A program made the position numbers and the translations under genes. From a virus: a stretch of 38,179 nucleotides of DNA. The stretch lies in the IMG/VR virus record IMGVR_UViG_3300042294_000818, positions 1 through 38,179 of that record, one strand, 5' to 3'. Numbering within the stretch: position 1 is the stretch's first letter; the number at the start of each line of letters is the position of its first letter. The notes beneath the pieces are model-generated. The model made no database searches. It saw only the letters and a program-made list of their open reading frames with translations, and was not told where the DNA came from. Below, in pieces: positions 3,226 through 10,494 of this stretch.

Positions 3226-3573
3226 CGATTAAATCTCTCCTCCTCTCCTGAGCTTGCACGTATCGTGCGTGCAGCTGACAACAGCTACCGCAAGCGGGAA
3301 GCATCCCTGCAGGTACGTGAGACTGTCTGTCTGTCCGGCACATACTGGGACGGCGGTAGTCGGTCTACGTACGTAGCTGTTGACCTGGTGACTCTGCGTA
3401 GTTCTGCTGCTGAGCAGTTTGCACCTGGTGCTTTCGGAGGGCCGGCTGCTGCTCCGATGGTGCGTATCCCTGAAGGTATCGCCATTGTGCAGACTGGCGT
3501 GTTCTGCGGTAAGACTGCGAACGCTACTGTCTACATAAATCCAGTCAACGCAGCGAAGCTGCTTCCTGCCTAA
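3223..3573 (+). CDS. Hypothetical early protein
   Basis: A 116-residue protein with the shared leader. It has a helical N-terminus (SSPELARIVRAADNSYRKREASLQ), then an Ala/Gly-rich, beta-like half with the segment VRIPEGIAIVQTGVFCGK. No transmembrane segment or enzymatic motif is seen. It may belong to a conserved group of phage proteins of unknown function. Only 10 bases separate its stop from the next leader. Confidence 0.78.
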   Translation: MRLNLSSSPELARIVRAADNSYRKREASLQVRETVCLSGTYWDGGSRSTYVAVDLVTLRSSAAEQFAPGAFGGPAAAPMVRIPEGIAIVQTGVFCGKTANATVYINPVNAAKLLPA

Positions 3574-5079: not shown

Positions 5080-5196
5080 GGTGACTGTTCGGATGCCTGT
5101 GCTATGTCTGAAAAGAAATAAGCACAGGTAGTGCAAGTCGATCGCGGCCTGGTCGCTTGGGGCTTGGCCGCTCGACCTACCCTAAGAGGAGAGAAG

Positions 5197-5994
5197 ATGC
5201 GTGACCCGTTCGTAATAGATAGCCCTACCTGCATAAGCTTTAGCGGTGGCAGAACCTCTGCGTACATGCTGTGGAGGGTGTTGCAGAGCAACGGGGGGCT
5301 ACCGCGAGAGGCCATTGTGTGCTTTGCCAACACGGGTAAAGAGGATGAATCGACTCTGGCGTTTGTTCGGGACTGTGGTGTTCGCTGGGATGTTGACATT
5401 GTGTGGTTGGAGTTCCAGGCCCATAGCCCGAAGTTCCGTCTAGTGGATTTCGAGAGTGCAGCGAGGAATGGTGAGCCTTTTGAGGCTTTGATTGAATACA
5501 AGAAGTACCTGCCAAACCCTGTGGCTAGGTTCTGCACAGAGGAGCTGAAGGCCAAGGCCATCTCTCGCTACCTGGAGTCTGTAGGCGTAGCAGATGCGGA
5601 GATGATGGTGGGAGTGAGGGCAGATGAGCCGCGCAGGTTGCCTAAGCTACGCGCCCGTAATCTCTTAGTACCTCTGGCTGACGCAGGTGTGACGCAGGTG
5701 GATGTGCAAGCCTTTTGGAAGGCTCAGGAGTTTGATCTAGGCCTGGTGTTCAGGGATGGGATTACCTCTTTAGGAAACTGTGACCTGTGTTTCCTCAAAG
5801 GCCCGAACCAGATCATGTCACTCATCAGAGACAAGCCAGAGCGAGCGGTGTGGTGGGCTGAACAGGAGGGGAAGATCAACGCTACCTTCCGCAGCGACAG
5901 GCCTAGCTATGGTTCCATGCTGCAGTTCTCAAAAGAACAAACCGATATGTTTGCAGGGATGGACGAGAGCATTCCCTGTTTTTGTGGAGACTGA
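5197..5994 (+). CDS. PP-loop ATPase, PAPS-reductase-like
   Basis: A 265-residue member of the adenine nucleotide alpha-hydrolase (PP-loop) superfamily, resembling phage phosphoadenosine phosphosulfate reductase-like proteins. It shows the PP-loop SFSGGRTSAYM near residue 15-25, FANTGKEDES, the arginine-rich GVRADEPRRL, and Cys residues in RFCTEEL, NCDLCFLKG and the terminal CFCGD that could hold an Fe-S cluster or metal. It would adenylate a substrate or use an adenylated one; the substrate is unknown. The start at ATG 5197 follows AGAGGAGAG. No cysteine biosynthesis partners are present, so sulfur assimilation itself is unlikely. Nucleic acid modification or counter-defence is possible. Confidence 0.8.
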   Translation: MRDPFVIDSPTCISFSGGRTSAYMLWRVLQSNGGLPREAIVCFANTGKEDESTLAFVRDCGVRWDVDIVWLEFQAHSPKFRLVDFESAARNGEPFEALIEYKKYLPNPVARFCTEELKAKAISRYLESVGVADAEMMVGVRADEPRRLPKLRARNLLVPLADAGVTQVDVQAFWKAQEFDLGLVFRDGITSLGNCDLCFLKGPNQIMSLIRDKPERAVWWAEQEGKINATFRSDRPSYGSMLQFSKEQTDMFAGMDESIPCFCGD

Positions 5995-6743: not shown

Positions 6744-7637
6744 ATGAACGACTTTGCACCTGAAGTACGTAATGCTGCGTGGTGGGCTTCTGACACCAGG
6801 CGTGCAGCATCAGGCCACGCTAACGAGGTCATCCTCATAAAGCAAGGAAAGCTACCACCACCTGACCTCAGCAACGTAGAAGCTGTGCAGATGGGTCACG
6901 TCATGGAGCCTGTTATCGGGCGTCTGGCTCAGAACAAGCTGGGCATAGAACTCAACAAGATAGAGGAGTTCCGCACACATCCCAAGCATGATTGGTTCCG
7001 CTCTCACTTCGACTTCGCAGGCACAGAAAATGGTGAGCCGATTCTTGTGGAGGCTAAGAACTACAACGCTGCTGTGCGTAATAAGTTTGACGAAAGCGGA
7101 ATCATGCCTGCTGCTGATGCTGCTCAACTCGTCCACGAAGCAGCCGTACTGGGTATCCGCAAGATATATCTGGCTGTCCTATTTGGTGGTCAAGAGTTTG
7201 TCCTCATTCCTAAGCTGGTGGAGGATGCCGAGAAGCACGAACTAATCCAGAAGATGGCCGTGCTCTGGGGCCATGTACAGACAGGTACACAGGCTGACCC
7301 TCAGTCCACAGATGAACTCAAAGCCATGTTCCCGGTGTCAGAAACCATGACCCGTGTAGCCAACAAGGCTATCGAAGGTTGGTGTGACGAGCTGTCCTAC
7401 ATCAAGGGTGAACTCAAGCGGCTAGAGGCTCAGGAAGAGGCTTGCAAGACGCACATCCAGAAGTACATGGGTACACACGATAGCTTGTCTACCTTTGACG
7501 GCAAGGTGCTGGCCACCTGGAAGTCTGCAAAGCCGTCTATCAAGTTCAACGCAGAGCTGTTTAAGCAGTCCATGCCGGACATCTACAAACAGTTCGAGGT
7601 TGAAGTCCCTGGCTCCCGCCGTTTCCTAATCAAGTGA
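6744..7637 (+). CDS. YqaJ-type phage exonuclease (recombination nuclease)
   Basis: A 297-residue PD-(D/E)XK nuclease of the lambda-exonuclease/YqaJ family, which degrades dsDNA ends to leave 3' single strands for an annealing protein. Visible active-site pieces are E55 (GHVMEP), D90 (SHFDFAG), E103 and K105 (LVEAKNY) and Q128 (AAQLVHEAAVLG). The C-terminal third (about 200-260) is a helical, charged segment. GAGGAG lies just upstream of the ATG. The RecT-like gene lies two genes downstream, the classic exonuclease/annealase pairing. Such pairs repair and replicate phage DNA and promote exchange between phages. Confidence 0.88.
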   Translation: MNDFAPEVRNAAWWASDTRRAASGHANEVILIKQGKLPPPDLSNVEAVQMGHVMEPVIGRLAQNKLGIELNKIEEFRTHPKHDWFRSHFDFAGTENGEPILVEAKNYNAAVRNKFDESGIMPAADAAQLVHEAAVLGIRKIYLAVLFGGQEFVLIPKLVEDAEKHELIQKMAVLWGHVQTGTQADPQSTDELKAMFPVSETMTRVANKAIEGWCDELSYIKGELKRLEAQEEACKTHIQKYMGTHDSLSTFDGKVLATWKSAKPSIKFNAELFKQSMPDIYKQFEVEVPGSRRFLIK

Positions 7638-7866: not shown

Positions 7867-8742
7867 ATGAGCAATATCGTTCCAGTCGCAGACATAGAGC
7901 GCATGGCCACAGCAGTAGCCAAGAGCGGTCTGTTCGGCATAAAGACACCTGAGCAGGGCGTGGCTCTGATGCTTATCGCACAGGCTGAGGGTATGCACCC
8001 AGCTATCGCAGCACGGGACTACCACGTCATCCAGGGCAGGCCGGCCCTCAAGGCCGATGCCATGCTCGCCAGGTTCCAGTCCTCGGGCGGGAAGGTGGTG
8101 TGGAAGGTCTACGAGGATGCAGAAGTCACAGGCGAGTTCTCACACCCTCAAGGTGGCACTGTGACCATCACCTGGACATTCGCGCAAGCCACCAAGATCG
8201 GACTCACAGGAAAGGACAACTGGCGTAACTATCCACGCGCCATGCTGCGTGCACGTGTGATCTCTGAAGGTATCCGCACCGTCTATCCAGGCTGTGTCGT
8301 GGGTGTCTACACACCCGAGGAGGTTGAGGACTTCAAGGATGACAAGCCTGCCAAGCAGTCCAAAGCCAAGGATATGGGCATGGTAGAGGTTGTGGATAGC
8401 GGCAAGGTCACCATCACGGTGGAAGACCCGCTGCCTCCTGACAACTCTGTGCCACTGTTCATCCCTGGCCAGGAAGAACCTTACTCTCACTTTGCAGATG
8501 AGGCTGACTGGATAGAAGGATACGCAGACATGATCGGGCGTATCTCCAACTCTGCCAAGTTCACAGATGAGCAGAAGAAGGTCAAGTTGGAAGACTTGAA
8601 GATCGTCAACGGAGATCAGCTCAAGAAGATGAACTCCTCTTCACTGGTCAGGCTGCGCTCTGCCATCGCAAAAGTAGGAGGATTCATCGACCCAAAGTCC
8701 CACTCAGTCCTGCCTCAACAAGAGGAACCCAGCGAAACCTAA
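7867..8742 (+). CDS. RecT-like single-strand annealing protein
   Basis: A 291-residue protein starting MSNIVPVADIERMATAVAKSGLFG at ATG 7867 (leader TGAGGTTCACAAC). Segments such as AQAEGMHPAIAARDYHVIQGRPALKADAML and NWRNYPRAMLRARVISEGIRTVYPG...YTPEE resemble the RecT/Red-beta annealase group as I know it. The assignment is supported by the YqaJ exonuclease upstream and an SSB-tail protein downstream. It would anneal complementary single strands during phage recombination. Beyond about residue 170 the protein is variable and charged. Near its 3' end a slippery heptamer could divert some ribosomes into the -1 frame HTH domain (next entries). Confidence 0.68.
   Translation: MSNIVPVADIERMATAVAKSGLFGIKTPEQGVALMLIAQAEGMHPAIAARDYHVIQGRPALKADAMLARFQSSGGKVVWKVYEDAEVTGEFSHPQGGTVTITWTFAQATKIGLTGKDNWRNYPRAMLRARVISEGIRTVYPGCVVGVYTPEEVEDFKDDKPAKQSKAKDMGMVEVVDSGKVTITVEDPLPPDNSVPLFIPGQEEPYSHFADEADWIEGYADMIGRISNSAKFTDEQKKVKLEDLKIVNGDQLKKMNSSSLVRLRSAIAKVGGFIDPKSHSVLPQQEEPSET
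8676..8697 (+). promoter_or_regulatory. Candidate programmed -1 frameshift signal
   Basis: An internal AGGAGG (8676-8681) lies 9 bases before the heptamer C CCA AAG (8691-8697). The heptamer fits X XXY YYZ in the correct phase for the RecT-like frame. This layout copies the dnaX arrangement, where a Shine-Dalgarno-like sequence about 10 bases upstream stimulates -1 slippage. No clear downstream hairpin is seen. Slippage would fuse the annealase to the HTH domain. Confidence 0.4.
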
Positions 8743-8942
8743 TCCTGAACCATCTGCTGCAAGGCAACACACTCACCGCTGTGGAAGCACTGGACAAGTT
8801 CTCGTGCTTCCGTCTTGCAGCCAGGATAGAAGAGTTCCGCAAGGCAGGACACAACATCGTTACCGAAACCATCAACAGCAACGGCAAGGAATTTGCCCGT
8901 TACCACCTGATAAAAGGAAAGTCTTATGAACAGCAGCTATGA
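8691..8942 (+). CDS. HTH-domain protein with no ordinary start codon (-1 frame of the annealase gene)
   Basis: A well-formed domain, LNHLLQGNTLTAVEALDKFSCFRLAARIEEFRK..GHNIVTE...FARYHL, matches the small phage helix-turn-helix proteins (CFRLAARI signature) that control or bind DNA. Its frame is open from the stop at 8568-8570, yet contains no ATG, GTG or TTG before GTG 8781, which would cut through the HTH. Expression must therefore use a rare start (for example ATC 8742 or CTG 8745), a -1 frameshift from the annealase gene at 8691-8697, or the sequence has lost a start. It ends 17 bases inside the next gene. Confidence 0.65.
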   Translation, partial: PKVPLSPASTRGTQRNLILNHLLQGNTLTAVEALDKFSCFRLAARIEEFRKAGHNIVTETINSNGKEFARYHLIKGKSYEQQL

Positions 8943-9225
8943 AGATCGTGCAGGCCGTGGCGTCATGTACTACGAAGAAGATCGCAAGTCTGACAAGCAC
9001 CCGGAATACAAGGGCTACGTCATGCTTGAGATGGACTACAAGGCCGGGGACAAGCTCAAGCTCTCTGCCTGGATTCGCAAGACCAGCAAGGGCTACAACC
9101 TGATCTCTCTCAACGAAGATACCTGGGCACGCAAGAAGCGTGAGGAAGCAGCTGCGTCTGGGCCTCGTGAGGTTGAGCCTGCCTACCGCAGCAAGCGCCG
9201 TGACGATAACGACATCCCCTTCTGA
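8926..9225 (+). CDS. Small protein with SSB-like acidic C-terminal tail
   Basis: A 99-residue protein. Its last residues, RRDDNDIPF, copy the acidic tip (DDDIPF) by which bacterial SSB recruits its partners. The body (GVMYYEEDRKSDKHPEYKGYVMLEMDYKAGDKLKLSAWIRKTSKGYNLISL) is beta-rich and too short for a classical OB-fold SSB but could be a minimal OB-like domain. The linker is charged. The ATG follows AAAGGAAAG. It lies between annealase/HTH and nuclease genes, so single-strand DNA binding or hijacking of host SSB partners is likely. Confidence 0.72.
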   Translation: MNSSYEDRAGRGVMYYEEDRKSDKHPEYKGYVMLEMDYKAGDKLKLSAWIRKTSKGYNLISLNEDTWARKKREEAAASGPREVEPAYRSKRRDDNDIPF

Positions 9226-9726: not shown

Positions 9727-10494
9727 ATGCCTCGTAAGAAAGAACAGGTAAAGCCTCACATCTTCGTTGCCACACCCATGTATGGCGGGATGTGCACAGG
9801 CTTCTACACACAGTCCATGCTGCAGCTGCCCACCATCGCACGCAACGCAGGCGTGGATGTCAGCTTCTCCTTCATGTTCAACGAGAGCCTTATCCAGCGT
9901 GCACGCAACGCTCTCGTGCACAGCTTCATGCTGCGCCAGGAATGCACGCACCTGATGTTTGTAGACGCTGACATCCGCTTTAATCCCGTGGACATCATCA
10001 CGATGGTGCAGGCAGACAAGGACATCATCTGCGGCATCTATCCTAAGAAAGAAATCAACTGGGCAGGCGTGCACAACGCAGCCACCAACGGCATCCAGGC
10101 CCAAGACCTCAAACGCTATACAGGCTCAATGGTGGTGAACCTGGTGGACTACCAGGGTACCGTCACCGTACCCGCAGACCAGCCTCTGCGTATCTGGAAC
10201 GGTGGCACCGGCTTCATGCTTATCAAGCGCGAGGTGTTTGAAAAGCTTAAGAAGAAGGTCAAGACCTACCGCAATGACGTAGGTGACCTCGGAGGCACTA
10301 TCAAGCCTCAAGACCTGATCTATGAGTTCTTCCCGGTGATGATAGAGAAGGAGTCACAGCGTCTCCTGTCAGAAGACTATGCCTTCTGCAAGATCGCTCG
10401 TGAGAACAAGATAGACGTGTGGGCCGCACCGTGGGTGCAGCTGGGGCACTTCGGCAGCTACCTCTTTGAAGGTGGCCTGATACCCGCTCCCTAA
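9727..10494 (+). CDS. Glycosyltransferase, GT-A fold
   Basis: A 255-residue probable sugar transferase. The N-terminus HIFVATPMYGG matches the nucleotide-sugar binding start of GT-A enzymes. D80-A-D82 (MFVDADIRF) is the metal-binding DxD. NGGTGFMLIKREVF, SEDYAFCKIARE and the late LGHFGSYLF are typical acceptor/base and His elements. The donor sugar and target are unknown; phage glycosyltransferases modify phage DNA, capsid or host surface glycans. It is the last plus-strand gene, and its TAA overlaps the TAG of the convergent gene. AGGAATCACC precedes the ATG. Confidence 0.85.
   Translation: MPRKKEQVKPHIFVATPMYGGMCTGFYTQSMLQLPTIARNAGVDVSFSFMFNESLIQRARNALVHSFMLRQECTHLMFVDADIRFNPVDIITMVQADKDIICGIYPKKEINWAGVHNAATNGIQAQDLKRYTGSMVVNLVDYQGTVTVPADQPLRIWNGGTGFMLIKREVFEKLKKKVKTYRNDVGDLGGTIKPQDLIYEFFPVMIEKESQRLLSEDYAFCKIARENKIDVWAAPWVQLGHFGSYLFEGGLIPAP

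Follow-up and report, generated by a model that had tools for sequence, protein, structure and literature searches.

We analyzed a viral DNA stretch of 38,179 nucleotides (IMG/VR record IMGVR_UViG_3300042294_000818), referred to below as the window, focusing on its recombination operon. Here, genes for an exonuclease, a small ORF and a single-strand annealing protein are followed by a helix-turn-helix (HTH) coding region in the −1 frame and by an SSB-like gene (Table 1). The small ORF has a hydrophobic, signal-peptide-like N-terminus and gave no convincing family match among Pfam and PHROG profiles. In the window, the operon is flanked by a PAPS-reductase-like gene (5131–5994) and a glycosyltransferase-like gene (9727–10494).

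Table 1 Genes and sequence elements of the recombination operon in the window.
Feature	Position	Strand	Details
RecE/YqaJ-like exonuclease, upstream partner gene	6744–7637	+	PHROG 434 RecE-like exonuclease, E 2e-42; Pfam YqaJ, E 3e-5
Small ORF between exonuclease and annealase, 69 aa	7647–7856
RecT/Redbeta-type single-strand annealing protein, zero-frame product, 291 aa	7867–8742	+	ATG 7867, TAA 8740–8742
AGGAGG, Shine-Dalgarno-like candidate 5′ stimulator	8676–8681	+	9 nt (8682–8690) before heptamer
Candidate slippery heptamer C_CCA_AAG	8691–8697	+	X_XXY_YYZ phase
Post-slip −1 frame coding sequence, 81 codons + TGA	8697–8942	+	TGA 8940–8942; predicted 358-aa long isoform
Winged helix-turn-helix domain HTH_39, −1 frame	8727–8912	+	PF14090, E 2e-12
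SSB-like gene, acidic DDNDIPF tail	8926–9225	+	PHROG 18154 SSB, E 3e-5

The zero-frame product matches the Pfam family RecT (PF03837) at 25.7 bits against a cut-off of 24 (E 1e-5) and PHROG 561, a RecT-like annealing protein, with an E-value of 4e-23. A sequence search of the PDB yielded no solved relative; the best PDB match of its AlphaFold model was lambda Redbeta (7ujl; probability 0.97, E 0.018, low TM-score). In this model of the short form, a core is followed by a linker of poor prediction quality, then by a helical C-terminal region (approximately residues 212–269) and a disordered tail. The HTH domain that the sequence-only reading had noticed in the −1 frame behind the annealase was confirmed by a PF14090 (HTH_39) match of 47.2 bits, with a cut-off of 21.3. 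The same profile recognizes the −1 extensions of 30/30 aligned relatives, and the domain is conserved at the protein level across relatives. Its AlphaFold model (pLDDT 77.5) shows three helices and strands in winged-helix order. Foldseek searches with this model gave weak matches, none below an E-value of 0.001 and mostly to winged-helix proteins, and the PDB sequence search with the domain gave no credible match.

Directly after a stop codon at 8568–8570, the −1 frame opens at 8571 and stays open up to its TGA, and the SSB-like ATG lies within its end, with an overlap of 17 nt (8926–8942). The AGGAGG element, the nine-base spacer and the heptamer are located exactly where the sequence-only reading had placed them. 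The heptamer is in the correct phase for −1 slippage, inside the overlap of the zero and −1 frames. Predicted products are 291 aa for unslipped and 358 aa (277 + 81) for slipped ribosomes. As the slip at residue 277 falls within the disordered tail, the attachment of the winged helix would be flexible.

Slippage at AAG is affected by the tRNA-Lys set of the host. The earlier statement that such an arrangement programs −1 frameshifts in bacteria agrees, for the heptamer and the upstream element, with PMC4066793 and PMC5009743, which describe upstream Shine-Dalgarno-like sequences as known −1 stimulators. In E. coli, both C_CCA_AAG and A_AAA_AAG rank in the top three heptamers for efficiency, and C_CCA_AAG combined with a pseudoknot stimulator reached 54% (PMC4066793).

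Frame relation and heptamer across annealase loci

Relatives of the locus were gathered in three ways: by annealase, by the HTH alone and by a different annealase core. The combined set comprised 267 non-identical annealase loci with intact ends. HTH_39 directly follows the annealase in 108/267 loci, in every case in the −1 frame (108/108) and never in frame 0 or +1. All 108 carry an in-phase heptamer (90 CCCAAAG, 14 AAAAAAG and 4 CCCAAAA), compared with 15/159 loci lacking an adjacent HTH. The corresponding Fisher P of 8e-59 is nominal since the loci are related; at 85% nucleotide identity, the 108 HTH loci fall into 39 clusters and are not independent. On the annealase tree, about a dozen changes are needed for the HTH and heptamer states, so that the association has been held through repeated gains or losses and through switches of heptamer type. 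CCCAAAG, CCCAAAA and AAAAAAG interchange on this tree while the arrangement is kept, and a RecT group whose core is distant shows such switching as well. L120, L121, L124, L132 and L138 each carry a pair of in-phase heptamers (CCCAAAA and CCCAAAG) spaced nine bases apart.

The HTH-seeded search was blind to the annealase and relied on single-sequence HTH scans, the HTH alignment having given no searchable conserved block. In almost all loci that had sufficient upstream sequence, it returned an annealase, the −1 frame and the heptamer. The exceptions were L278 (weak HTH match), L289 and L290 (contig-edge fragments) and L276, whose annealase was missed at first and placed in the combined analysis once more annealase queries were used. 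In the alignment of related loci, the heptamer, its phase, the Shine-Dalgarno-like element and the lack of a close start are kept while the surroundings diverge. Relatives combining an ordinary ATG for the HTH with no heptamer, named by the sequence-only reading as evidence against a fusion, number 0/108 among the adjacent-HTH loci. In L018, L059, L063, L101, L127 and L170–171, the heptamer itself marks the start of the open −1 frame; in these relatives, a fusion is therefore impossible from a site further upstream in the annealase gene.

The absence of ATG, GTG and TTG before GTG 8781 in the −1 frame, also put forward earlier, is true in the sequence but not unusual, with 3 starts observed between heptamer and annealase stop in 32 loci versus 3.0 expected. 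It matches chance and was thus dropped as positive evidence; its worth is that it leaves the HTH without an ordinary start.

Nucleotide conservation and alternative explanations

Several comparisons point to selection on the nucleotides themselves. Pro-Lys codons are written as CCCAAAR in 71/71 tails of HTH loci, versus 0/29 and 2/48 in annealase cores. Synonymous recoding predicts the heptamer in approximately 4.5 of 32 non-redundant relatives, while it was observed in 32/32. Upstream of the heptamer, anti-Shine-Dalgarno pairing averages about −7.3 kcal/mol in 32 relatives versus about −1.5 in 96 control annealases, and it amounts to −5 or better in 38/39 clusters. The Shine-Dalgarno-like element occurs in varied codon phases and encodes different residues, for example GTA GGA GGA in the window, ATG GAG GAA in L082 and CCA AGG GAG in L057. 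Around the site, information content peaks at GGAG (−14 to −11) and at the heptamer. From the heptamer to the annealase stop, 0 stops occur in the −1 frame across 32 relatives versus 36 expected. Judged from these alignments, the heptamer and the Shine-Dalgarno-like element are conserved as nucleotides, beyond amino-acid needs.

The sequence-only reading had described the layout as the same as in dnaX. This holds for the 5′ element and the heptamer, but not for the 3′ side, where the window has no significant stem-loop (z −0.18). A 12-bp stem-loop, located 5–6 nt 3′ of the heptamer and including one compensated pair, is found in one subclade only (L110, at 3301–3349, L047, L136, L142 and L144).

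We are highly confident that these features reflect a conserved programmed −1 ribosomal frameshift that is real and selected, as far as comparative data can indicate. One gene would thereby very likely yield isoforms of 291 and 358 aa, and the earlier proposal of an annealase and an annealase-HTH fusion from a single gene gains support from the invariant frame and heptamer (108/108) and from the nucleotide-level conservation.

One alternative is that the signal serves chiefly translational coupling, with slipped ribosomes passing the annealase stop and ending by the SSB start, and with the HTH extension being secondary. In nearly all relatives, the end of the −1 ORF and the next start indeed lie no more than about 50 nt apart, and the following gene is SSB-like, with an acidic tail, in most of them. 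Some loci without an HTH also keep the heptamer and the Shine-Dalgarno-like element, their −1 ORF entering the SSB gene. However, the extension encodes a conserved domain that is folded according to the model, and most of the inspected HTH-less annealases directly adjoin an SSB-like gene and need no frameshift. We consider coupling as the chief function improbable. Under the preferred frameshift reading, slipped ribosomes finishing beside the SSB start may help to couple SSB translation.

It is very unlikely that the HTH represents a separate small protein, produced from an internal start or by re-initiation at a non-standard codon, with AGGAGG as its ribosome-binding site and the heptamer being incidental. 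Internal initiation would need no conservation of synonymous sites in the heptamer, yet these are conserved, and the frame is always −1, never 0 or +1. Although AGGAGG looks like an ordinary ribosome-binding site and a few relatives (L012, L035–039, L063) carry a −1-frame GTG just past the heptamer, a start codon within reach is absent in the window and in most relatives. HTH_39 does occur as a free-standing gene in other phages.

Transcriptional slippage, giving mRNAs with a base lost or gained, could be considered for AAAAAAG, the run of six A present in 14 relatives. The predominant CCCAAAG (90/108), however, has no run longer than three, and the conserved spacing of the Shine-Dalgarno-like element has no known role in such a process; this explanation was rejected for CCCAAAG and appears highly improbable overall. 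An assembly indel near 8700–8742, the other refutation named in the sequence-only reading, or a decaying HTH remnant is next to negligible as the cause of the frame break, because the same frame relation in contigs of many separate metagenomes and in the deposited phage record MW202825.1 (GenBank) refutes the former and protein-level conservation of the HTH speaks against the latter. No observation in favor of either was found.

Proposed mechanism and modularity of the extension

In the proposed programmed frameshift, AGGAGG in the mRNA would pair with the 16S rRNA of the elongating ribosome, which would pause when CCA-AAG occupies its P and A sites. A fraction of ribosomes would then slip one base back, to CCC-AAA. 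Unslipped ribosomes would terminate at 8742 and release the 291-aa annealase, whereas slipped ribosomes would read 81 further codons to give the 358-aa annealase with a C-terminal winged helix. Long subunits could mix into the annealase oligomer and add contacts to double-stranded DNA, which might tether the ring or filament to a junction, a replication fork or a phage site. That the winged helix provides such contacts in some of the oligomer subunits is our best guess.

The arrangement was found on at least three annealase core types that are approximately 30–45% identical. The L247 and L271 groups, whose cores are about 42–45% identical to the queries used, and L270, with a RecT core of about 30% identity, carry the same cassette. 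L271 and L110 have a nearly identical C-terminal region and a diverged core, and the sequences of L270, L271 and L110 suggest that modules have been exchanged within the annealase gene. Within the L270 core family, HTH and heptamer occur together in 13/80 loci and neither occurs in the other 67. In 10/67 of these unfused loci, HTH_39 is encoded by a separate ORF lying about 2.3 kb upstream of the annealase, so that the domain can be supplied fused or free. Such an upstream ORF is seen near locus position 640–840 in L304, L318, L319, L322, L336, L338, L341 and L368.

An in-phase CCCAAAG without HTH_39 is present in L066, L068, L071–073, L174–177, L183, L187, L188, L015, L016, L017, L023, L225 and L226. 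The −1 frame continues for about 50–85 aa in these loci and in some groups reaches the SSB gene. For the L066, L174 and L183 groups, it runs on into the SSB gene for about 59 aa, and their intergenic differences gather at third positions of the −1 frame (e.g. 1, 4 and 9). This pattern hints at translation of the extension, in a stretch that is short and in groups that are related. Yet another pattern is seen in the L015 and L016 groups, whose Shine-Dalgarno-like elements are less well placed. Possibly, the HTH-less heptamer loci represent a second frameshift extension or a relic.

A broader interpretation, which we put forward tentatively and at slightly less than even chances, is that the helical C-terminal region, the frameshift site and the winged helix travel together, as one cassette, between different annealase cores and fix the proportion of plain and DNA-tethered subunits within the recombination complex. 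In some relatives, a different short −1 extension would have taken the place of the winged helix, and frameshift isoforms would be a general means of tuning phage annealases.

Comparison with known systems

Frameshifting as such is already known, as is C-terminal extension by frameshift. The sequence-only reading knew of no described RecT fusion of this type; likewise, we found no frameshifting single-strand annealing protein in searches of the open-licence PMC literature, an absence that is not proof. Searches by recombination-related terms turned up no gene of this kind in the main texts of surveys of −1 candidates (PMC3711429; PRFect, PMC10885494; with a narrower set of terms, PMC4066793) or in the searched portion of the main text of PMC5009743.

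The locus would represent a conserved frameshift in a recombination gene, producing a pair of annealases, one with and one without a DNA-binding domain. Since recombineering relies chiefly on RecT/Redbeta proteins, the effects of a natural second isoform on annealing and recombination could be tested directly. Current annotation drops the HTH domain: in MW202825.1 (L082), the HTH at 3322–3528 is annotated only from an internal ATG at 3415, and the N-terminal half of the domain is lost.

The closest parallel in signal is E. coli dnaX (tau/gamma), where a Shine-Dalgarno-like element likewise lies about 10 nt before an X_XXA_AAG heptamer and one gene gives two isoforms of a protein of DNA metabolism. 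In dnaX, however, slippage gives the shorter product and a 3′ stem-loop plays a part, whereas in the window the shifted product would be long, no significant 3′ stem is present and the gene encodes a phage annealase. Tail-assembly and capsid genes provide the best-known cases of frameshifting in tailed phages. The lambda G-GT tail assembly chaperone and capsid Ig-like extensions share with our locus a C-terminal extension in the −1 frame that recurs across phages (PMC5009743); those are structural or assembly genes, while here a recombination gene would be extended by a winged helix.

HTH_39 (PF14090) is also found near replication or recombination genes in Burkholderia phage DC1 (gp18) and Sulfitobacter phage pCB2047-A (SUAG_00029), where it is annotated as a free-standing gene with its own start, unlike the HTH in the window. 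Finally, RecT/Redbeta annealases likewise join an annealase core to a helical C-terminal region, which in some of them is an in-frame, HTH-like domain (PMC8093625). The window annealase differs from these in that, according to its model, such a helical region already precedes the slip site, and the winged helix would be an additional domain reached only by frameshift.
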